Positions 2,914 through 58,470 of a stretch of 64,000 bases of DNA are shown piece after piece. The notes beneath the pieces are model-generated. The model had not been told where the DNA came from, made no database searches, and worked only from the letters and a program-made list of their open reading frames with translations. Source of the DNA: Nitrospira sp. CG24E (GTDB taxonomy: Bacteria; Nitrospirota; Nitrospiria; Nitrospirales; Nitrospiraceae); NCBI GenBank assembly GCA_002869895.2, contig NEWP02000014.1:120789-184788 (forward strand). The letters are read 5' to 3'. A program made the position numbers and the translations under genes. Position 1 is the first letter of the stretch; every line of letters begins with the position of its first letter.

Positions 2914-2976
2914 AGCCGGCCTCAATCCTGTCCGTATAGTAGGGGGGCACATTGGCTCCGTCAATTGAAAATCCCT

Positions 2977-3148
2977 GGCAGGATGCTGAAAAAGTCATTC
3001 TTCTCACCCGCCCAGCCCTGGCGCGCCGAGACGCGCCTTTCCCCAGGCTTCGTTCTCACTTCGCTCAGAGGCTCAAAGTACCGCAAGGGTACGCCTCGCC
3101 TCTTCGCTCGCTGCGGCCTTGCTGGACGGACTTTTTGAGCATCCTGCC
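2977..3148. repeat. MITE-like palindromic repeat, full-length copy (family R)
   Basis: A 172-bp non-coding element bounded by imperfect inverted ends: GGCAGGATGCTGAAAAAGTC on the left and GGACTTTTTGAGCATCCTGCC on the right. The interior has further short palindromes (GGCGCGCCGAGACGCGCC). Related copies lie at 34229-34320 and 43388-43508, with one lone end at 36178-36200. No transposase is encoded, so it behaves like a non-autonomous element. It occupies the intergenic space between the divergent VOC and hemD genes. Confidence 0.8.
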
Positions 3149-3303
3149 CCGAATTACTGGTATTCTATGCGTGCAGAGTAGTGAAATTCCTGCGACCTGC
3201 AGAATGTGCCCGCCTTGATCGAGTCGATGGCTGCGCCTTGTTTCACAGCCTATGGTACGATGGTCACGCTTCCGATTTAAGTTTGAGAGTTTCATTCACG
3301 GCC

Positions 3304-9261: not shown

Positions 9262-9978
9262 TCAAACCGCGCCAAATTCAATGAGTCCCTTCCGGTGGGC
9301 CGCAATGAGCAGCTGTTGTCGGCTAGTGACCTGCATTTTGCTGAAGATTTCAGTGAAATGTCGGCGAACAGTCGCTTCTTTGATGCACAGCCTTTCCGCG
9401 ATCTGCTTGTTCTTTAAACCCTTCGCAAGGGAATGGACGATCTCAAGTTCCCGAGAGGTCAGGCTTCCGATCAACTCTGTCTGAGTGCGAGCATTGCTTT
9501 TGCCCGAAGACCTATCGTGGATCAGGCCAACGGCGGATTGTGCCGGTCGATCGTCCATAGGGCTTGGAGCGAAGCCGCAGAGTGAATCAATGGCGGCAAA
9601 CAGAACGGCGGGCGGTTGAATGGTGAGCACGACTCCATCTGCTCCTGCCGCTATGGCGTCGCGTGTCAACTTCGCATCGCCCAATCCGCTCAGCACCAAA
9701 ATATTCGAATCTGCGGCCGCCGCGCGCAATTTCCTGACGAGTTCCGACGTGTCGGCATCCGCCAGTTCCAGGTCGACGATGATGACCTGCGGCCTTTTCC
9801 GAGCAACGATCTCCACCGCAGTACCGCCCAAGGGTAGGTCGTCAACTTCTGAAGCGAACGAATGCGACTTCAAAATCATACGCAACCCCATGCGTATGGC
9901 AACATTGCTGCTGATGAGCGCTATTCTAAGAAAGCGAGCGTTCGATTCTTGGATGGGCAAGGGCTTTACCGTGTTCAT
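9262..9978 (-). CDS. LuxR/NarL-family response regulator with degenerate receiver
   Basis: 238 residues. The receiver-like domain (about 17-130) keeps the phospho-acceptor Asp (VIIVDLELADAD) and a Ser in LVLSGL. The usual acidic pair near the first strand is replaced (LISSNVAIRMGL), and the conserved Lys after the last strand is replaced in GADGVVLTIQ. The C-terminal LuxR helix-turn-helix is complete: LTSRELEIVHSLAKGLKNKQIAERL and following. It is therefore probably a DNA-binding regulator that does not use ordinary Mg-dependent phosphorylation. It is divergent from the exopolysaccharide locus, which it may control (inference). No partner histidine kinase is adjacent. Confidence 0.88.
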   Translation of the reverse strand: MNTVKPLPIQESNARFLRIALISSNVAIRMGLRMILKSHSFASEVDDLPLGGTAVEIVARKRPQVIIVDLELADADTSELVRKLRAAAADSNILVLSGLGDAKLTRDAIAAGADGVVLTIQPPAVLFAAIDSLCGFAPSPMDDRPAQSAVGLIHDRSSGKSNARTQTELIGSLTSRELEIVHSLAKGLKNKQIAERLCIKEATVRRHFTEIFSKMQVTSRQQLLIAAHRKGLIEFGAV

Positions 9979-10553
9979 TTAAAAGAACCGTATTGGGTCT
10001 CAAGCCTGTAGCCAGACTACTGAGAGAGACTCCGGGCATGGAACCCTATTATGAGAAAGCTTCCGGAATTCAACGTCAAGCTTGCTTTCTGTACTCTCTG
10101 CATGTCTCCGGTTCGGCTCGCGACAAAGACAGCAGGCATTTCTGTGTATTTGTATGAATCAGCTCCAGTCAACGATTTGCAGCGCATCATCTATACCGAT
10201 AGCCCGACAAGGGCACAATACGAAATAAGCCGTACGGAAACAAGCCGCCCATACAGGTTCGGACTCCATTATTAGAATGGTGCCCTTCTCGTAATACATA
10301 CAACCGGTTGAAATACTGCGAATATCCGTCCGGTAGAGACGTTGCCGCCTCATGCATGCCCTACGAAAGGGGGGGGGGGCTGAAAGTTGTAGGTCTTTAG
10401 CGGTATAGACCGTTAGTAAAATGGGAGTATCCGACGATGCGGAAATTTTGAAACGTAACTATAAGACTCACGTTCTTGATAAGAATGCATGCGCTTCCAG
10501 TTAATAATGGGAGTGAATGGGCGAAGCTGTATCAGATAGGGATAATAGACTTC
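9979..10553. other. Long intergenic leader between the LuxR gene and the exopolysaccharide locus
   Basis: About 575 bp with no convincing gene; short frames here have no ribosome-binding site or recognisable protein. It must hold the divergent promoters. Two things stand out: an 11-G run at 10369-10379 and, just after it, the small inverted repeat GGTCT-N10-AGACC at 10392-10411. A long transcribed leader would suit the antiterminator encoded immediately downstream. Confidence 0.5.
10369..10379. repeat. Poly-G tract (11 G) in the exopolysaccharide leader
   Basis: Eleven consecutive G residues, about 175 bp before the start of the NusG-like gene. Tracts of this length slip readily during replication, so the promoter or leader could vary in length between cells. 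Confidence 0.7.
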
Positions 10554-11105
10554 ATGATGGTGCACGACTATCCGGCCGCTTCTTGGTACGCACTCGCAAC
10601 ACGTTCGCGGCAGGAAAAACTGGTCCGAGACCGTCTCGCCGGCAGAGGGTTTGAGCAACTGCTGCCGCTGATCAGGCGTCTGAGCCAGTGGTCGGATCGA
10701 AAAATGTGGATCGACGCTCCGTTATTTTCCGGTTTCTGTTTCGCAAGATTTTCGCTTGATGACAAGTTGGCAGTGCTCACCTTGCCCGGCGTTGTGCGAA
10801 TTGTCGGATGCAATGGCCCTGAAGCAGTCCCGGATGATGAAATAATGTCCCTTCAGAAGCTGGCCGTCAGCGGACTGGATTATGAGCCCCATCAATATTG
10901 TGAAGAAGGAATGCTTGTCGAAGTGGTAAGCGGCCCGCTTGCAGGGATACGGGGAACCCTTGTCCGGAAAGCCGGCCGAGATCGTGTTGTGATCAGGGTG
11001 CGTCTGATCCAACAATGCGCATCGGTGGAGGTTGTGCACAGTACTATCAGACCCGTATGCGGTTCAGACAACCTGCCTCTCGTCGAATCCAGTCTCAGCG
11101 CCTAA
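10554..11105 (+). CDS. NusG-like transcription antiterminator (UpxY/RfaH type)
   Basis: 183-residue specialised NusG paralogue. The NGN domain starts at SWYALATRSRQEKLVRDRLAGRGFEQLLP and contains PLFSGFCFARF; a C-terminal KOW motif follows (EGMLVEVVSGPLAGIRGTL). Such proteins load onto RNA polymerase at the start of long polysaccharide operons and suppress pausing and premature termination. It is the first gene of the exopolysaccharide locus, which fits that role. The ATG at 10554 is preferred over 10476 because the NGN domain begins almost immediately after it; the ribosome-binding site is weak (AGGGAT). Confidence 0.88.
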   Translation: MMVHDYPAASWYALATRSRQEKLVRDRLAGRGFEQLLPLIRRLSQWSDRKMWIDAPLFSGFCFARFSLDDKLAVLTLPGVVRIVGCNGPEAVPDDEIMSLQKLAVSGLDYEPHQYCEEGMLVEVVSGPLAGIRGTLVRKAGRDRVVIRVRLIQQCASVEVVHSTIRPVCGSDNLPLVESSLSA

Positions 11106-11235
11106 TCTGACGATCAGGACGTGATGTGCGGTTATCGCCTGCAATCGCCCCAACTGACTTATTGCGCCACTAGTATAACCCCCGAATCAGTGGATCACCC
11201 AGGCCTATTCCTTTTCACATTGGAGAGAGGTTGAC

Positions 11236-12366
11236 GTGCCTCAACTGCGAGTGCGAACCGTGCGCGTAGCCGAGCTGACTCCGGAAATTGTGCAGGCATG
11301 GGAAGAGATTGAGGCTAGAGCGCTGCACTTCAACGCATTTCTTTCTCCCCGCTTTATTCTTCCGGCTATCCGACACCTTACCTCCGACAAGAATGTTCTC
11401 ATCCTCTTGGTGGAGAGCCCATCGCCATTCCAGCTTCTTGGCGTGGGAGTCTTTGAAATAAATCGCCCCTCCATAGCCTGGCCACTGCCCTATCTCACGG
11501 CATACCGCCCCCCGTTCTCTTATCTGAACGGGTTCCTGATCGATTCTCGAAACCCTCGTGAAGTTATCACGGCGCTCTACGGCCATTTGTCTCATCCGGA
11601 TTTTCGTTACAACTATGTCGACCTGCACCTTCATCCTGAATGCAAAATCACTGAGGAGACGCATAGCGCCCTGGCGCAGACGTACCCGCTGCAGTGGCAA
11701 CAGACAGGAACGGTTCGACGAGCAATTCTCAGACCGGAGTCGGCGGGTGAAGATTATCTGCAAACAAAACTCAAAAGCCGCTACAAAGACTGCATGCGAT
11801 TGCTGCGCCAGCTTTCAAAAATCGCCCCCGTGACCTGGCATTATCTCACCGGTGAGGATGTGACTCACGACACCGTGGAGCGTTTTCTGGAACTCGAGCA
11901 CAAGGGCTGGAAAGGTGCAGAAGGCAGTTCGTTGGCTTCCAGCTCTTCCCGCACCGCGTTCTTCCGGGAAATGGTTGAGGGCTTCCGACTCCATGATCGG
12001 GTGTTCTTCACTGAATTACGCCTGGATGGGAGGGTGATTGCATCCACATGCAACCTGATTTCTGGAAAGGCCGGATTCGGTTTCAAGATTGGCTGGGACC
12101 CGGAATACACCCGGTACTCCCCCGGGATTCTCAATGCGTTCCAGCTGATACTCCATGCGCCGACCTACTGCAAAAACATGGAGATAATCGATAGCTGCTC
12201 GTCCCCCGAATCCTTCATCAACAGTCTGTGGCTGGAACACAGATCGTTGGTCACCAGCGCCTATACCACTTCATTTCTGGGAAATGTTTCGTTGCAGGCT
12301 CACAGGCGAACCCGCCGTGCAATCAACATCCTCAACAAAATGGGCGGTTTGGTCAGCGGAAAATAA
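11236..12366 (+). CDS. GNAT/FemAB-like N-acetyltransferase (acetyltransferase_6 type) of the exopolysaccharide locus
   Basis: 376 residues, cytoplasmic. The C-terminal half carries the BioF2-like/FemAB GNAT fold: KSRYKDCMRLLRQL, a central FFREMVEGFRLHDRVFFTELRLDGRVIASTCNLISG strand pair, and GFKIGWDPEYTRYSPGILNAFQLI. Proteins of this type are common in exopolysaccharide clusters, where they are thought to acylate a sugar nucleotide or lipid-linked sugar; the acceptor here is unknown. The start is GTG at 11236 with GAGAGG 5 bases upstream. Confidence 0.85.
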   Translation: MPQLRVRTVRVAELTPEIVQAWEEIEARALHFNAFLSPRFILPAIRHLTSDKNVLILLVESPSPFQLLGVGVFEINRPSIAWPLPYLTAYRPPFSYLNGFLIDSRNPREVITALYGHLSHPDFRYNYVDLHLHPECKITEETHSALAQTYPLQWQQTGTVRRAILRPESAGEDYLQTKLKSRYKDCMRLLRQLSKIAPVTWHYLTGEDVTHDTVERFLELEHKGWKGAEGSSLASSSSRTAFFREMVEGFRLHDRVFFTELRLDGRVIASTCNLISGKAGFGFKIGWDPEYTRYSPGILNAFQLILHAPTYCKNMEIIDSCSSPESFINSLWLEHRSLVTSAYTTSFLGNVSLQAHRRTRRAINILNKMGGLVSGK

Positions 12367-12504: not shown

Positions 12505-12774
12505 ATGAGACAATCACGGTTTTCCGACGATGAAATAGCGAAGATATTGGCCGAGGTTGCAGGCGGGCTAAAGCCCCACGCAGTGTGTCAGGTACACGGG
12601 ATTTCCGTGCAGACCTTCTACCGGTGGAAAGCACTGTTCCAAAACCATAACGGAATGAGTGTCGCGCGGTTGCGCAATCTTGAACTGGAAAATCATCGAT
12701 TGAAACAAACTGTGGCGGACCTTTCTCTTGATATCCGTACTCTGAAAGTCGCGATTTCAAAAACTCTTCAGTGA
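12505..12774 (+). CDS. Orphan IS3-family OrfA-like protein
   Basis: 89-residue protein matching the helix-turn-helix plus leucine-zipper OrfA of IS3-type elements: RFSDDEIAKILAEVAGG, then VCQVHGISVQTFYRWKALF, then LRNLELENHRLKQTVADL. The frame is intact, but no OrfB with a DDE domain follows and no terminal inverted repeats are visible. It could be the remnant of an insertion sequence or a retained DNA-binding protein inside the polysaccharide locus. The ribosome-binding site is poor. Confidence 0.75.
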   Translation: MRQSRFSDDEIAKILAEVAGGLKPHAVCQVHGISVQTFYRWKALFQNHNGMSVARLRNLELENHRLKQTVADLSLDIRTLKVAISKTLQ

Positions 12775-12919
12775 TGTCCGGGTTGTTGAGAGCTCTGGAG
12801 TGAACCGGAGTTAATGCCCGAAGATCTTATTCATTGGCTCATTCATTGTCGATATGCTCAACTGCAAGAATGTTGGGTTGTAGACTTCCAACGGCGGGGA
12901 TTTAAGGAGAGAACCGTCC

Positions 12920-14332
12920 ATGATCCGTTCTGGTCGAATCGCCGCATGCGCCATAAGCATCCTCGTCATTGTCGCGACGTCCGAAATGTCATCGGCACAA
13001 CAATCCGTTTCACCCAACGACCCTTCTCAAGCTCAGGCGTTCAGCCAGAGTGCATCAGGGGCGACCTTCTTGTCTCAATTCGCCAATCCGGCGCTCCGAG
13101 GATCTCTGTATTTGACCCCACAGTGGCCCCTGACCGGCTATTACCCCCTCTTTCCGGGAGGCTTGGTTCAAGCTCTTCGCGCCGATGGGGTGATGGTGGG
13201 ACCGCTCCGGTTGAACCCCCACATGGGGGTGTCCCAAATGTACACCGATAATGTGTTCAGGACCAACAGCAACAAAACCAGCGACTTTCTGACGACCCTT
13301 TCACCGGGCATCCAGGCCCAATTGCCGTTTGCCGGCTTCCACTCGTTCCTGATCGATTATCGTACCAATCTTCAATACTATTCACGCACTCCCTCGAACG
13401 ATGTGCAGGATCAGACGGCGACAGGAGGCTTCAAATTCAATTTCCCCGGCGGCCTCAATATCGACCTCCAGGGCCACCACAAGCTCGGACATGATCCCAG
13501 AGGTTCTGCCGTGGATGATGTGAATACGCAGGGTCTCGAGGTGAACAAATGGACGGCCAATGGTTTCACCGGTCAGGCCGAATACCTTGGAGCGCAGTCC
13601 ATTGTGAGGTTGACCGCGCAAACGATTCGCTGGGACTATCTGAATAACGGGCTGGGTCCTAGTCGGGATAGGCTGGCCAATAATGCCGGCCTGACCTTCT
13701 CTCGTAACATTACAGGCAAAACGTCTCTGCTGGCCAACTTTGGCGCCCTTCAATCGATATATGATCAGAACAAGAATCTTGACAATGTCCTGTATACCAT
13801 CAGCGGAGGAGCGACCTGGAATGTGACCGATCTGACTTCCGGAGACATTCTGATCGGATATCAGAACGTGCAATTTACTCGCGCAGAGGTCAATCAGCCT
13901 CCTCCGTTGAGCCAGTTTGCGAGAGACAAAGACAGCTACTCCAATTTGTATTTCATGGGAAGACTTAATTGGCAGGCGACCCCGCTGTTGAAGATCACCC
14001 TTCAGCCCTATAGGACGATCCAGCAGACGGTCACAACCGGCTCCCTGTTCTATACAGCAACCGGCGTGAATCTTACAGGCAGGCATGAATTGACCGATAG
14101 CACGACCTTGAATCTCAATCTGGGGTTCGAGGAGGATACTTTTCAACGTTCCGGTTCCGGCGGCTCCAACAGAACCGACCAGTTGAAGAATGCCGCTGTC
14201 GGCGTGAATTACCAAGCTGTCAAATGGGTGGGGCTGGGTATCCAATACATTTTCGAGGACCGTAACTCCAATCAAACTCAGTTTACCTACCAAGCCAACA
14301 CCGTGATGTTGTCTGCTCAGGTGCTCCTCTAG
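12920..14332 (+). CDS. Outer-membrane beta-barrel protein (BBP2_2-type porin) of the exopolysaccharide locus
   Basis: 470 residues with a signal peptide (ACAISILVIVATSEMSSA). The mature protein begins with a disordered Gln/Ser-rich segment and then shows repeated amphipathic strands from about residue 95 (LRLNPHMGVSQMYTDNVFRTNSNKTSDFLTTLSPG) to the C-terminus, which ends in AQVLL. The NVFRTNSNKTSDFL motif is characteristic of the barrel proteins found in exopolysaccharide gene clusters. It may serve as the outer-membrane exit for the polymer, since no Wza-like export protein is seen here. AAGGAGA lies 9 bases before the ATG. Confidence 0.85.
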   Translation: MIRSGRIAACAISILVIVATSEMSSAQQSVSPNDPSQAQAFSQSASGATFLSQFANPALRGSLYLTPQWPLTGYYPLFPGGLVQALRADGVMVGPLRLNPHMGVSQMYTDNVFRTNSNKTSDFLTTLSPGIQAQLPFAGFHSFLIDYRTNLQYYSRTPSNDVQDQTATGGFKFNFPGGLNIDLQGHHKLGHDPRGSAVDDVNTQGLEVNKWTANGFTGQAEYLGAQSIVRLTAQTIRWDYLNNGLGPSRDRLANNAGLTFSRNITGKTSLLANFGALQSIYDQNKNLDNVLYTISGGATWNVTDLTSGDILIGYQNVQFTRAEVNQPPPLSQFARDKDSYSNLYFMGRLNWQATPLLKITLQPYRTIQQTVTTGSLFYTATGVNLTGRHELTDSTTLNLNLGFEEDTFQRSGSGGSNRTDQLKNAAVGVNYQAVKWVGLGIQYIFEDRNSNQTQFTYQANTVMLSAQVLL

Positions 14333-14651
14333 CCCGGATTATCCACAACTCCTTCTGCTGCAAACGCCAACTCGCTGCGCTTCGGCGTGAAGCGTGACAG
14401 GCAAGACTGGCGGAAACAGTTTGGTCTCTCTAGTTTATTTGGTTTGTTTGGTTTGTTTCGTTGAACAAGAGCAACCAAATGAACAAAACAAACCAGATCA
14501 ACCTTTCTCCCTTCGCGCAGCCTCGCTCCGTTCGTTTGGCGTGCGCAGCTGTCCCGAGAGCTGTTCCTTGCCGCGCCACGCTGAAGATGACGCCTGCCTG
14601 TTGACCCAGACCTGAGTTCTTCCTCAACCCGCTACAACGGAGACCACTAAA
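14333..14651. other. Intergenic region between the barrel gene and the tyrosine kinase gene
   Basis: 319 bp without a gene. It contains one heptamer copy of the ACGCTTC type (antisense, around 14388-14397) and the decameric inverted repeat at 14420-14503. The kinase ribosome-binding site GGAG lies at its end. Confidence 0.7.
14420..14503. repeat. Decameric inverted repeat, copy A
   Basis: The left arm consists of degenerate 10-bp units of the form TTTGGTTTGT (three to four copies). After a short centre (TTCGTTGAAC) the right arm carries the complement (ACCAAATGAACAAAACAAACCAGAT). The arms can form a long imperfect stem. The same design recurs at 26362-26430, 36089-36162, 38613-38707 and 57614-57750. 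Confidence 0.85.
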
Positions 14652-25457: not shown

Positions 25458-25493
25458 CGCTTGGGCGAGAGAACGTCGGAGGTTTGGCCGGAT

Positions 25494-26381
25494 ATGAATT
25501 ATATGCTTCCTGCCGCAAAGCAACTATTTTTAGACGTCAATCCACTCCCGGACGAGACTGCGGCCACCCGTGCTCAACTGGAAAAAGATTTCTTCTCGTC
25601 TGTACGCTTGAGCAACGGCGTGTTTAAGACCACGTCGGCCCTGCGGTTGGATGATGTGAATAGGGCCTTGGTTGTTCTGTTCCAGAAGCTCGGCGTGGCG
25701 CCGAAGACCTTCTTGGACGTCGCCGTCTCGTCAGGCATTTCAACGATTGAGTGGTTCGAGTCGCTACAACAAGCTCGGCTGAAACCGCGCATGACCGCGA
25801 CTGATTTGACCATGACCGCCTATCTGGTGAGGTTGGGCAGCTGGTGCACGGTCCTTGTCGATAAGGAAGGGTTTCCCCTCCAGTATGAGTGCTGCGGCTT
25901 TGCCTTGCGCCCTTGGTCGCCTAAACGATACTACGTGTTGGGAGATTGTTTTCTGACCATGCTTTACCGCGCCCTCTACCGGCGCTTTGGACAACGGCTC
26001 GGTCTCTTGACGCGCCTCAAATCCTTACAGGGACATCCGCCGTCGATCGATGATCCTGTGATCAAGGCTCGAATACAGCTGGTCACGTGGCGGCTGCGGG
26101 GCAATCAAGACATTGAACTGCTCGATGATGATATCACCCAGCCGACGCCACCTCAGTTAAGAGGTCGATTTGAAGTGATCAGGGCGGCGAACATTCTCAA
26201 TCGGGATTACTTCTCGGTCCCCCAACTCCGTGAAGCAGTGCTAAACCTCCGTGGTCGATTGGCAGGGCCCGGAAGCTTCCTTATCGTCGTATGCACGGAA
26301 GAAACAGACAGCAATCACGGAAGCGTATTCCGTCTGGGCCGGACAGGATCCTTCGAAGTGCTGTCTGGTTTGTTTGGTTGA
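25494..26381 (+). CDS. SAM-dependent methyltransferase-like protein with repeat-derived C-terminus
   Basis: 295 residues. A class I methyltransferase signature is visible: motif I-like FLDVAVSSGISTIEWFESL, an acidic second strand TATDLTMTAYL, and a later GRFEVIRAANILNRDYFS followed by the strand FLIVVCTEE. It resembles the CheR-like/extracytoplasmic methyltransferases that read as hypothetical in many genomes. The ATG at 25494 has GGAGG 11 bases upstream. The last six codons and the stop are supplied by the decameric repeat that begins at 26362, so the original C-terminus may have differed. It closes the exopolysaccharide operon. Confidence 0.65.
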   Translation: MNYMLPAAKQLFLDVNPLPDETAATRAQLEKDFFSSVRLSNGVFKTTSALRLDDVNRALVVLFQKLGVAPKTFLDVAVSSGISTIEWFESLQQARLKPRMTATDLTMTAYLVRLGSWCTVLVDKEGFPLQYECCGFALRPWSPKRYYVLGDCFLTMLYRALYRRFGQRLGLLTRLKSLQGHPPSIDDPVIKARIQLVTWRLRGNQDIELLDDDITQPTPPQLRGRFEVIRAANILNRDYFSVPQLREAVLNLRGRLAGPGSFLIVVCTEETDSNHGSVFRLGRTGSFEVLSGLFG

Positions 26382-26430
26382 ACGAAACTAACCAGATAAA
26401 CAAAACAAACCAGATAGACCAGATGAACCA
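26362..26430. repeat. Decameric inverted repeat, copy B (starts inside a coding sequence)
   Basis: The left arm TCTGGTTTGTTTGGTTGAAC encodes the last residues and stop of the methyltransferase-like gene; the right arm is AACCAGATAAACAAAACAAA plus two more units (CCAGATAGAC, CAGATGAACC). Same family as 14420-14503. Confidence 0.85.
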
Positions 26431-34149: not shown

Positions 34150-34228
34150 CGATTACCCTCAGCAAGATAAGCTGCGGTGAACAGATTGATGATCCAGATG
34201 AGCAGCAGAGTAACAGGATGGGCTCACA

Positions 34229-34320
34229 GGCTGCTCAAAAAGACCGGACTTCTCATCCGCCCACCCCGGCGCGCCAAGACGCGCCGTTCCACGGGCAAGG
34301 CCGCAACTCTGCGGCTGACC
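34229..34320. repeat. MITE-like repeat, degenerate/truncated copy (family R)
   Basis: Begins GGCTGCTCAAAAAGACCGG, shares the interior GGCGCGCCAAGACGCGCC with the copy at 2977-3148, and includes GCCGCAACTCTGCGGC. The right inverted end is missing; it runs into a heptamer array at 34325. Confidence 0.7.
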
Positions 34321-34324
34321 CCTC

Positions 34325-34353
34325 GTTTCACGCTTCACGCCTCACGTTTCACG
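34325..34353. repeat. Heptamer array, degenerate copy
   Basis: GTTTCACGCTTCACGCCTCACGTTTCACGG-type units (7 bp) abut the yceI stop codon on the opposite strand. Confidence 0.7.
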
Positions 34354-34360
34354 GCTCCCG

Positions 34361-36088: not shown

Positions 36089-36162
36089 CCGGTCTATCTG
36101 GTCTGTTCGGTCTATCTCGTCTATCTTGTCGACCAGACGAACCAGATAGACCAAACAGACCA
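36089..36162. repeat. Decameric inverted repeat, copy C
   Basis: Clear 10-bp phasing: GGTCTATCTG, GTCTGTTCGG, TCTATCTCGT, then the complementary arm ACCAGATAGA, CCAAACAGAC. It lies between two divergent genes, so it is not simply a terminator. Confidence 0.85.
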
Positions 36163-36177
36163 CATGCACAAGACAGC

Positions 36178-36200
36178 TGGCGGACATTTTCAGCATCCTG
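36178..36200. repeat. Solitary end of the MITE-like repeat (family R)
   Basis: TGGCGGACATTTTCAGCATCCTG matches the terminal GGACTTTTTCAGCATCCTGCC-type end seen at 2977-3148. No second end is found nearby, so it looks like a remnant. Confidence 0.6.
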
Positions 36201-36287
36201 ATAGGTCGCATCCTACCGATCTCGCAGATCCTGGCGCAACCCCCAGAAAGGGTAGGCGTGACTGAGGCTGTGGTATACAATGTACCC

Positions 36288-38612: not shown

Positions 38613-38707
38613 TGTTTGTTTAGTTTATTTGGTCTATTTGGTTCATTTGGTTTCTCTCATTCACAACCAAACAAACCAGACCAGCAAGATGAACAAAACC
38701 AACCTGG
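38613..38707. repeat. Decameric inverted repeat, copy D
   Basis: The left arm TTTATTTGGT CTATTTGGTT CATTTGGTTT and the right arm AACCAAACAA ACCAGACCAG with AACAAAACCAACC flank a TCTCTCATTC centre. It lies between convergent kbl and mlaA and could terminate both, but the copies elsewhere argue against that as its only role. Confidence 0.85.
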
Positions 38708-39577: not shown

Positions 39578-39608
39578 CGGCCCGGCCTCCTTAACCCGCA
39601 TGATTGTT

Positions 39609-39694
39609 GGGGACTGGCGCCCTTCTTTTTGCGCCTGTCCCCTTCCGATGGAGCAGCGGGACAGGCGCCGCCGCAGACGACGGAGCCAGTCCCC
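39609..39694. repeat. Nested palindromic element (GGGGACTGGC / GCCAGTCCCC)
   Basis: Outer inverted repeat GGGGACTGGC ... GCCAGTCCCC encloses an inner one, GCGCCTGTCCC ... GGGACAGGCGC, with a 6-T stretch in the left part. It is non-coding and in the mlaA upstream region. Confidence 0.75.
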
Positions 39695-39763
39695 TGGCCG
39701 ATGCGCACTGTATCAAAAGTCGAGGCAATCTCCAATCACTTCTTTGTTCTCCTTCGCCGAATA

Positions 39764-39825
39764 CCCCGCAGCTTCCGGCCTTCGTAGCCAAAGTGGCTAC
39801 CTTGGCGGAGTAGGCTGCTGCGGGG
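39764..39825. terminator. Strong hairpin after the hydrolase gene (possible terminator)
   Basis: CCCCGCAGC ... GCTGCGGGG (9-bp perfect stem) with an inner GTAGCC-AAAGT-GGCTAC stem, 40 bp beyond the hydrolase stop. It may be a terminator for the minus-strand gene or another dispersed palindrome. Confidence 0.5.
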
Positions 39826-39865
39826 GAGCTTCATTGAAACCGGTGGAGCCGAGTCGACTTTGGTT

Positions 39866-45851: not shown

Positions 45852-45891
45852 CAGTCTGTCTCGTGTATTTGGTTTGTATGGACAGAGGAGA
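45852..45891. repeat. Solitary arm of a decameric repeat
   Basis: CAGTCTGTCTCGTGTATTTG followed by GTTTGTATGGACAG resembles the left arm of the decameric inverted repeats; no complementary arm is evident. Confidence 0.45.
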
Positions 45892-54428: not shown

Positions 54429-55094
54429 TTATTTGGTGTTGCTGTCCACGTTGTTCGAGGTTGGATCCAGGTCCGGTTTTTCGAGTTTTCCCGATTCCAA
54501 CTGCAGCAGAAAGCGGGAGGCTAAGTCTTCGGCGATGAAGCGGCCTGCTTGCTCCAAGGCTCGGTTCTGTAAGACACGGTTGAATTGCAGGTCCGGCGTC
54601 ACGTAAAACTCTGAGGCGCCCTTCGCCATTTGCGTCCACACAAGACGTTTTGTCCTAGCGTCTTCCACCTTGACCGTTACCACAACTTCTGTGCGGCTTT
54701 CGAGTGTGGTGGTCTGGCTGAAACTGAGCGTCGGAACCATGACCGAGAGAATTTGACCTGACAACACAAGATCTGCTGCCTCAGTATCCGCCACGATCTG
54801 AGCCCCGCTGCCGGATGAAAATTCGTGGCGCAGATAGTTGGTGTAGCGGGTTTCCAGGTTGGGCTCAAAACTTTTATTTTCCAGAGTCTGGACTACTAAT
54901 CGGGGTGGAGGCGACGTGGATGAAGATGTCGCCGTTGCACCTCCGATCGTGGGCCCCGCTCCCTCCACACGGAATTGGTAACCGCACGCGCTGAGCGACA
55001 GGCTCAGCGCCAAGTACAAAGTACAAAGTACAAAGGCAAAAGTTCTGGAGCATCCACTTTTACCTTTTAACTTTAAACTTTTTACTTGCCGCAT
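54429..55094 (-). CDS. lptE: LPS-assembly lipoprotein LptE
   Basis: 221 residues. The lipobox LSAC GYQF (Cys37) marks an outer-membrane lipoprotein, and RLVVQTLENKSFEPNLETRYTNYLRHEF matches the LptE/RlpB pattern, with IVADTEAADLVLSGQIL next. It plugs the LptD barrel and helps insert LPS. The signal-peptide codons are partly made of simple repeats: KSLKLKGKS comes from a purine-rich AAAGTT-type run and FVLCTLY from three copies of the heptamer TTTGTAC. Only 3 bp separate it from leuS. Confidence 0.88.
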   Translation of the reverse strand: MRQVKSLKLKGKSGCSRTFAFVLCTLYLALSLSLSACGYQFRVEGAGPTIGGATATSSSTSPPPRLVVQTLENKSFEPNLETRYTNYLRHEFSSGSGAQIVADTEAADLVLSGQILSVMVPTLSFSQTTTLESRTEVVVTVKVEDARTKRLVWTQMAKGASEFYVTPDLQFNRVLQNRALEQAGRFIAEDLASRFLLQLESGKLEKPDLDPTSNNVDSNTK

Positions 55095-57533: not shown

Positions 57534-57613
57534 GTCGCAACAGAGTGCCGGTAGTTAGAAAAAGAGGAAGGACTCTAACATAGACCTGCGGGAGCAACAA
57601 GAATCGAGGAGAG

Positions 57614-57750
57614 GTTCGTCTGGTCTGTCTGGCCTACCTGGTTTTTCTGGTTAGGTGGTTCGTTTGGTTTCTCTCGTTCTTCGAACCAAATCCACTAAAC
57701 AAACAAGACAAACCAATTAACCGAGATAGACCAAATGAACAAGACAGACT
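57614..57750. repeat. Decameric inverted repeat, copy E (longest)
   Basis: Left arm CGTCTGGTCT GTCTGGCCTA CCTGGTTTTT CTGGTTAGGT GGTTCGTTTGGTT; centre TCTCTCGTTCTTCG; right arm AACCAAATCC ACTAAACAAA CAAGACAAAC CAATTAACCG AGATAGACCA AATGAACAAG ACAGACT. About 135 bp in total, able to form a very long stem. Confidence 0.85.
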
Positions 57751-57771
57751 GCCGGACTTTATAGCACATTG

Positions 57772-58470
57772 CTAGATTACAGCCCGCCTGCTCAGGAGTG
57801 GAGAAAAACCGGTGACCGAAACAAACTGAGCGAGCGGAGCAGGAGGCAGCTGAGAACTGGACTTGGCGCTATGAATGAGATGGGCGACGCCAAATTGTTT
57901 TGCTGCAATCAGGCAATTCTCATCGTCATCCATGAAAAGGGATCTGGTTGGATCGAATCCAAGTAATCGCTGACAATTGGGCCAATACTCCGGGCGCATT
58001 TTCAGATACCCAACCTCGAATGCATTCACGATTCGATCGACATATTGATCGAGTCCGGTCTTGGCAACTTTGATGGCCACGCCTGACTCATGGGCATTTG
58101 TCACGATCGTCACCCTCTTTCCCAGCTGTCGAAGGTGTCGCAGAAACTCCTCCGCCCCAAAGAGGAAGCCGATCATATGATCCAGTTCTTTGGTCATCGC
58201 GACGACATCGATTCCTACACGCTGTGTCCAGTAGTGTAGATCGGTCCACGCCAGGTCGCCTTCAACCGAGCGATACATCGCCATGAGGGTGTCGCGAGAC
58301 TCTTCGAGCTGTAGGCCGTGGAGCAGGGCATAGCGGTGGGGCAACTCCTCCTCGAAAAAGAAATTGTCGAAATGGCGATCGAGCAGTGTCCCGTCCATAT
58401 CGAGCAGGACATCGTCGATCTCGTCCCAATTGATCAAGTGCTGAGAGCTGCGTGCTGTGTGCTGCGTCAT
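57772..58470 (-). CDS. HAD-family GMP/IMP nucleotidase (YrfG-like)
   Basis: 232 residues. HAD motif I is DDVLLDMDGTLLDRHFDNFFFEEELP, which matches the YrfG N-terminus closely; motif II is TIVTNAH, motif III Lys lies in GYLKMRPEYW, and motif IV is SLFMDDDENCLIAAKQFG. The cap (LDLHYWTQRVGIDVVAMTKELD-like) also fits. It would dephosphorylate purine monophosphates. It is divergent from der. Confidence 0.87.
   Translation of the reverse strand: MTQHTARSSQHLINWDEIDDVLLDMDGTLLDRHFDNFFFEEELPHRYALLHGLQLEESRDTLMAMYRSVEGDLAWTDLHYWTQRVGIDVVAMTKELDHMIGFLFGAEEFLRHLRQLGKRVTIVTNAHESGVAIKVAKTGLDQYVDRIVNAFEVGYLKMRPEYWPNCQRLLGFDPTRSLFMDDDENCLIAAKQFGVAHLIHSAKSSSQLPPAPLAQFVSVTGFSPLLSRRAVI

Follow-up and report, generated by a model that had tools for sequence, protein, structure and literature searches.

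Palindromes of degenerate 9-bp units in Nitrospira behave like a small, copied interspersed repeat

Among the palindromic repeats of bacteria, REP elements are 20–40-bp palindromes, found in hundreds of extragenic copies per genome, marked by a GTAG/CGTC tag and linked to RAYT proteins (PF01797 type). Roles in the protection of mRNA 3' ends, in operon stability and in termination have been proposed for REP/BIME elements. A recent survey of REPs gives no more than a count for Nitrospira moscoviensis (PMC12306157). Rickettsia palindromic elements (RPE; Ogata et al. 2000, 2002, in PMC10969869) are described there as palindromes of about 150 bp or less, whose in-frame insertions are translated. 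GGGNATC heptamers, reported from Xanthomonas and Nostoc (Rehm et al. 2015, PMC4692102), contain GGG tracts able to form G-quadruplexes. The closest published analogue of the repeats analyzed here is found in Geobacter metallireducens: in the description of its classes 1–3 (units GTTGCTYN, TCTCCGTS and MTYCTGA), arrays of 3–5 short degenerate units occur mostly as opposite-strand pairs, in tens of copies, with function unknown and with a variable inter-array distance in classes 1 and 2 (Aklujkar et al. 2009, PMC2700814).

Five loci of the window, i.e. the whole 64-kb stretch of Nitrospira DNA under analysis, are inverted repeats of one dispersed design, as the initial annotation had proposed, with boundaries only slightly shifted. 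Comparison of the arms with themselves identifies the repeat unit as the 9-bp GGTYTRTYT: the self-match amounts to 0.625 and 0.631 at lags 9 and 18, versus 0.350 at lag 10. The unit had originally been taken as 10 bp long, equal to one helical turn: autocorrelation rules out this period, and the argument from helical phasing falls with it. When scored as unit arrays, the ten real arms reach 22–26 of 27, values never attained by Markov-shuffled windows, which peak at 19–20 of 27. The modal copy, about 83 bp long, is composed of 4.5 GGT-type units, a centre of few bp and 4.5 complementary units; the consensus of the family HMM, also of about 83 bp, is GGTTtATcTGGTTTgTTTgGTTtaTcTGGTTtgTtTgGTTcAACcAaAcaAACcAgAtaAACcAaAcAAACCAgATaAACCAG. 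Copy length ranges from 64 to 160 bp. Rfam, at gathering threshold, recognizes only tRNA in the 64-kb window, and the palindromes are unmatched.

The family was followed in 848 kb of the 3.45-Mb draft genome, sampled in stretches including the window, where genes were called by a hexamer model and arrays were searched by a cyclic unit profile. 59 array loci were found; in 47 of them a G/T-rich array is followed by an A/C-rich one, and the reversed order is never observed (47 vs 0). A family HMM, seeded with one copy, recovers 54 of the array loci, with zero matches elsewhere in the 848 kb; alternating units and a shared centre are common to these 54 sites. Half-array matches are 870 genome-wide and 191 in the sample: extrapolation from the 848 kb by this ratio gives an estimate of about 214 paired copies and about 270 array loci per genome. 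The family is thus not limited to the few copies first noticed.

Hundreds of palindromes per genome are also a feature of REP/BIME elements, but the Nitrospira consensus, with its 83 bp or so, has neither the GTAG/CGTC tag nor a RAYT link. As in MITEs, terminal inverted repeats are present, the entire element being an inverted repeat. Compared by published consensus with the Geobacter arrays (PMC2700814), the family shares the pairing on opposite strands, seen at 47 of the 59 sampled loci; it differs in the unit (9-bp GGTYTRTYT instead of 7–8 bp), in the centre of few bp, in the hundreds of copies and in the in-frame coding copies. Likened by description to RPEs (PMC10969869), it consists of many-copy palindromes of 64–160 bp, compared to roughly 100–150 bp, a minority of which are in frame and translated; unlike RPEs as described, the arms are periodic 9-bp arrays, and clear in-frame insertions number just 2 among the 47 paired copies sampled. 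Like the GGGNATC repeats (PMC4692102), it features dispersed, degenerate tandem units, located between aligned ORFs, near stops and rarely between divergent ORFs, with variable length at orthologous sites; unlike them, the unit contains GG only, and the arms are paired and inverted. In the open-access literature neither a published name nor a Nitrospira paper on such a repeat was found, in line with the initial annotation, to which no named element of this form was known.

The five copies of the window differ in size and surroundings. Copy 1 (14419-14503; G/T arm 14419-14462, A/C arm 14462-14503) lies 86 bp downstream of a stop codon, with codirectional genes on either side. Copy 2 (26362-26430) has a short left arm, and contains the stop codon of ORF 25461-26381: the final codons and the stop codon of this ORF are supplied by the left arm (26362-26381). 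Copy 3 (36091-36175) is located in a divergent spacer, at a site where sister genomes carry an intact MITE-like repeat; it is adjoined by the right end of such a repeat, on the + strand at 36176-36203, reading GCTGGCGGACATTTTCAGCATCCTGATA (GCTGGCGGACATTTTCAGCATCCTGATAG at 36176). Copy 4 (38614-38704) is found between convergent genes, and five related species have a copy at the corresponding position. Copy 5 (57613-57749), the longest, lies between the stop of a HAD-hydrolase gene and leuS, and is adjoined by a degenerate MITE right end (57750-57775, + strand); the leuS-HAD spacer is empty in two related genomes (G026 and G024) and contains an intact MITE-like repeat instead in a third one (G004). 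A possible lone arm of 2–3 units, at 45854-45881 (+ strand), was missed by the family HMM and is reported with low confidence.

Copies after genes, between convergent genes and between divergent genes had been noted initially: this variety holds for the five copies of the window, but not genome-wide, where a strong bias for the region following stop codons is observed. Of the 43 intergenic paired copies, 33 are found no more than 40 bp downstream of a stop codon, versus 7.0 for random placement in spacers (maximum 16 in 1000). Divergent spacers host 3 of these 43 copies versus 10 expected (p = 0.006), and between codirectional genes the distance from the copy is shorter to the stop upstream than to the start downstream in 26 of 33 cases (p = 0.0013); gene calls being in-house, single distances may shift with the choice of start codon, while stops are unaffected. 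No preference for a type of stop codon is seen (TAA 14, TGA 14, TAG 13 of 41); arrival by means of MITEs targeting TAG/TAA stops was rejected on this ground. Nine copies fall within a 15-kb LPS glycosyltransferase cluster. The genes at C20:270-285k, considered also as a possible integron-like cassette array, are those of an ordinary LPS cluster.

Two of the 47 sampled paired copies are clearly coding and in frame, within waaA and within a fusion of waaF to a GmhB-like HAD domain (9919-11340 and 12764-14497 of stretch L158, C20:260-280k). In waaA (Kdo transferase, identified on the basis of NCBIfam and 2xci) the copy encodes e.g. SGLFRLFGLFSFLEQKNPNKPDEQNKLNQPDKP, directly before the conserved VIWVHAVSLGE; it is found at the same position, with varying length, in 6 of the 6 species examined, with intact ORFs. 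In waaF-HAD the linker is an in-frame family copy in four species, again with intact ORFs; in two other species the linker, also in frame, is made from other repeat units. Both translated segments are of species-specific length, and the waaF linker is of species-specific repeat type as well. Since these copies must be passed by RNA polymerase and ribosomes, the element is no obligate terminator; the initial statement that termination alone is not a sufficient explanation is therefore supported. Nor does the family have the features of intrinsic terminators: the stem pairs T/G-rich with A/C-rich sequence and is not G+C-rich, and the 45-bp flanks show no T run 3' of the right arm.

Complementarity between arms is better than in shuffled sequence, as initially supposed: compared to dinucleotide shuffles, hairpin energy has a mean z of -5.4 over the 47 copies. 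The further claim, that complementarity is kept by selection on structure, found no support. The match between arms of the same copy (0.579) is no better than that between arms of different copies (0.585; permutation p = 0.69); folding is not weakened when the right arm is replaced by that of another copy (chimera folds, mean z -0.08, p = 0.99); in the family alignment, in-register Watson-Crick pairs are 69.4%, versus 70.2% with right columns shuffled between copies. Besides these three independent tests, compensatory evolution is contradicted by the alignment of the 38614 copy from six species, where the covariation term has an unfavourable sign (+1.2) and both sides are changed in only 2 of 28 pairs: compensatory base changes between the arms, looked for as a mark of such selection, were not found. 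The numbers of G-U-compatible mismatches on the sense and antisense strands (70 vs 71) show no strand bias, which argues against selection at the RNA level. Arms pair because both are built on one unit consensus, inverted from one arm to the other: base pairing is a by-product of inverted units, not individually maintained, and selection on pairing is not supported. The missing covariation is a caution against taking the complementarity of repeats as evidence of selection on RNA structure. Systematic nesting of the palindromes into larger ones was also rejected, as flanks are complementary to the same extent as swapped flanks. Only one site is clearly nested: at C20:271406-271553 a 9-bp palindrome lies in the centre of a palindrome of 7-bp units (GGCTGAA), and the 9-bp palindrome is lacking there in the sister genome G023.

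Several copies are closely related to each other. Copy 2 (26362-26430) shares 55 identical bases with the copy at C14:25816, in reverse orientation, across the centre and up to the palindrome edge; copy 5 and a copy on contig C10 have 87% identity over 118 bp, and another pair features 93% identity over 73 bp. Such matches mostly stop at the palindrome edge. The original view, that the copies differ in sequence and do not derive from recent copying, holds in part, but not for copies 2 and 5. At orthologous sites copies are kept in 27 of 32 cases in the sister genome G023, and in 21 of 28 in G005, the remainder being empty or otherwise occupied; with most sites common to relatives, turnover is slow. 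Copies have nevertheless been both gained and lost at orthologous positions. Clean empty sites are present in G005 at C14:67921 (7 bp left) and C14:126447 (3 bp left), and C20:272660 is empty in G004 and G030. At the empty sites no target-site duplication is evident; the insertions are old, with diverged flanks. The commonest indel size, relative to G023, is exactly 9 bp. Unit positions 2, 3, 7 and 9 change less than flanks when compared with G005 (0.066 vs 0.144, p = 1.5e-4), a contrast also inflated by unit-shift misalignment, and not significantly so when compared with the closer G023 (0.065 vs 0.089, p = 0.06); both figures are biased, because a recognizable array is required in the own genome.

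In 121 genomes of the order, matches are confined to the own family, with none in the 48 genomes of other families. All of the 31 relatives of the same genus contain matches, from 3 to about 590 each; a phylum-even sample includes a single genome outside the family with matches, three in number. Among the matches listed for the named collection, palindromes account for 43 of 51 in Nitrospirota and for 7 of 73 in other records (Fisher p = 7e-18): it is mainly in Nitrospira and its family that the unit takes the palindromic form. Outside Nitrospirota the unit is mainly found in plain tandem arrays, viral contigs included. Carriage by phages was considered and rejected: the 14 viral-contig stretches with a unit array contain nearly always unpaired tandem units, and in the clear paired exception (L272) the flanks are Nitrospira-like. 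On one viral contig (IMGVR_UViG_3300013103_000070; stretches L268 and L269), unpaired GGTYTRTYT arrays lie beside arrays of 7-bp AGCCATN units.

The family behaves like a small, copied and largely selfish repeat, rather than like a finely tuned RNA structure. The presence of related copies (with 55 identical bp up to the edge of the palindrome), sites that are empty in relatives and the length steps of 9 bp indicate a copied, slippage-prone, non-autonomous repeat akin to REPs, RPEs and MITEs, though lacking the REP tag and a link to RAYTs. The preferred explanation, with a probability of about 0.6, is that of a non-autonomous palindromic interspersed repeat of Nitrospira, spreading by copying of the palindrome, prone to slippage, placed by weaker counter-selection and pairing only incidentally. 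The palindrome itself is copied from site to site, as seen from inter-copy matches that mostly end at its edges, and its length often changes in 9-bp steps, probably by slippage. Copying would proceed either by template switching or ectopic conversion between copies, during replication or repair at the hairpin, or by a putative transposase acting in trans. Copies would survive where insertion harms least, after stops and in a few protein loops that tolerate it: counter-selection is probably weaker at 3' locations than it is in genes or promoters, and mRNA 3' ends may incidentally benefit. In favour of this explanation are the 54-member HMM family, the copy matches ending at edges, the empty sites, the 9-bp indels, the post-stop placement, the in-frame copies, the range from 3 to about 590 matches within one genus and the lack of covariation between arms. 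Against it, no mobilizing enzyme was found when PF01797-type RAYTs were searched, and no clear target-site duplication is seen at the (old) empty sites; moreover, the slower positions 2, 3, 7 and 9 in the G005 comparison could mean selection on unit sequence, and the strong post-stop placement could also mean function. As to RAYTs, no half-array adjoins any of the three PF01797 matches of the own genome, among the matches listed, and the family does not seem to depend on them, as no PF01797 match is present in four element-rich genomes (G004, G013, G017, G022), some of which are incomplete.

The main rival, to which about one chance in five may be given, is a functional RNA hairpin in 3' UTRs, which would shield mRNA 3' ends, set differential stability within operons or terminate transcription bidirectionally. 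Strong folding, strong placement after stops with avoidance of divergent spacers, retention of most copies at orthologous sites and the nine copies in the LPS cluster are all consistent with it. Compensatory changes are absent, however, G-U-compatible changes are not in excess on the sense strand, no T run follows the right arm, the waaA and waaF-HAD copies are read through and translated, and some species of the genus are almost without copies.

Similarly unlikely is that the 9-bp family is one of several Nitrospira "unit palindromes" of common genesis, replaceable at a site by one another or by a MITE with the hairpin kept, and re-created at fixed 3' or linker sites by hairpin-directed recombination, not by classical transposition. 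Other such palindromes are built from 6-bp GGTTRA, from 7-bp CGTGAAA, GGCTGAA and AGTACAA, and from further units; those with 6- and 7-bp units are present in the own genome too, and at some orthologous sites, by eye, take the place of the 9-bp type. Replacement was rejected as a general rule: by strict count it is seen in 5 of 25 cases, not above background (p = 0.19).

Binding of a global regulator had been proposed for the paired 7–8-bp arrays in the Geobacter metallireducens description (Aklujkar et al. 2009, PMC2700814). By analogy, the Nitrospira arrays might be bound by a global regulator or a nucleoid protein, the 9-bp unit being the recognized word and inverted pairing leading to a symmetric complex. 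The maintenance of unit consensus but not of pairing, the slower change at positions 2, 3, 7 and 9 relative to flanks in the G005 comparison and the invariable precedence of the G/T arm (47:0) fit this proposal, which is nevertheless improbable: promoter-only spacers are avoided, some copies lie inside coding sequences, copy number varies widely, with species featuring few copies, and the slower positions, not significant in the closest comparison, are inflated by unit-shift misalignment and ascertainment. Finally, a purely local mutational product, in which slippage arrays are turned palindromic by template switching at each site with no spread between sites, would account for the 9-bp indel steps and for the unpaired tandem GGTYTRTYT arrays of many unrelated genomes and viral contigs, but is very hard to reconcile with one consensus, alternating units and a shared centre at 54 sites, with 55 identical bases at two distant sites and with the lineage-specific palindromic form.

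The family offers a natural system for studying the spread of periodic palindromes when no transposase is obvious, and why so many bacterial repeats settle just after stops. Major nitrifiers contain this repeat in hundreds of copies per genome; it is now named and bounded, and otherwise pollutes gene calls, BLAST hits and assemblies.

Other repeats are found in the vicinity. The MITE-like repeat of Nitrospira genomes, with ends GCAGGATGCTsAAAA.../...TTTTCAGCATCCTGC, is found at sites similar to those of the 9-bp palindromes, about one fifth of which are adjoined by one of its ends; it is nevertheless non-periodic, GC-rich, endowed with distinct terminal repeats and unrelated in sequence to the 9-bp family. 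A complete element of about 186 bp lies at 2970-3155 of the window, with ends GGCAGGATGCTGAAAAAGTC and GACTTTTTGAGCATCCTGCC recurring many times in the genome. At 55007-55092, directly after the stop codon of leuS, a palindrome is made of 7-bp AGTACAA units (GCGCCAAGTACAAAGTACAAAGTACAAAGG...; the right arm is complementary). A single-arm array of 7-bp TTTCACG-type units, CGTTTCACGCTTCACGCCTCACGTTTCACG, is present at 34325-34354; the same unit type also forms a palindrome upstream of waaA (C20:269820-269904). At 34227-34305, 39605-39700 and 39743-39838 the window contains other dispersed repeat families, matched many times in the genomes of related Nitrospira.
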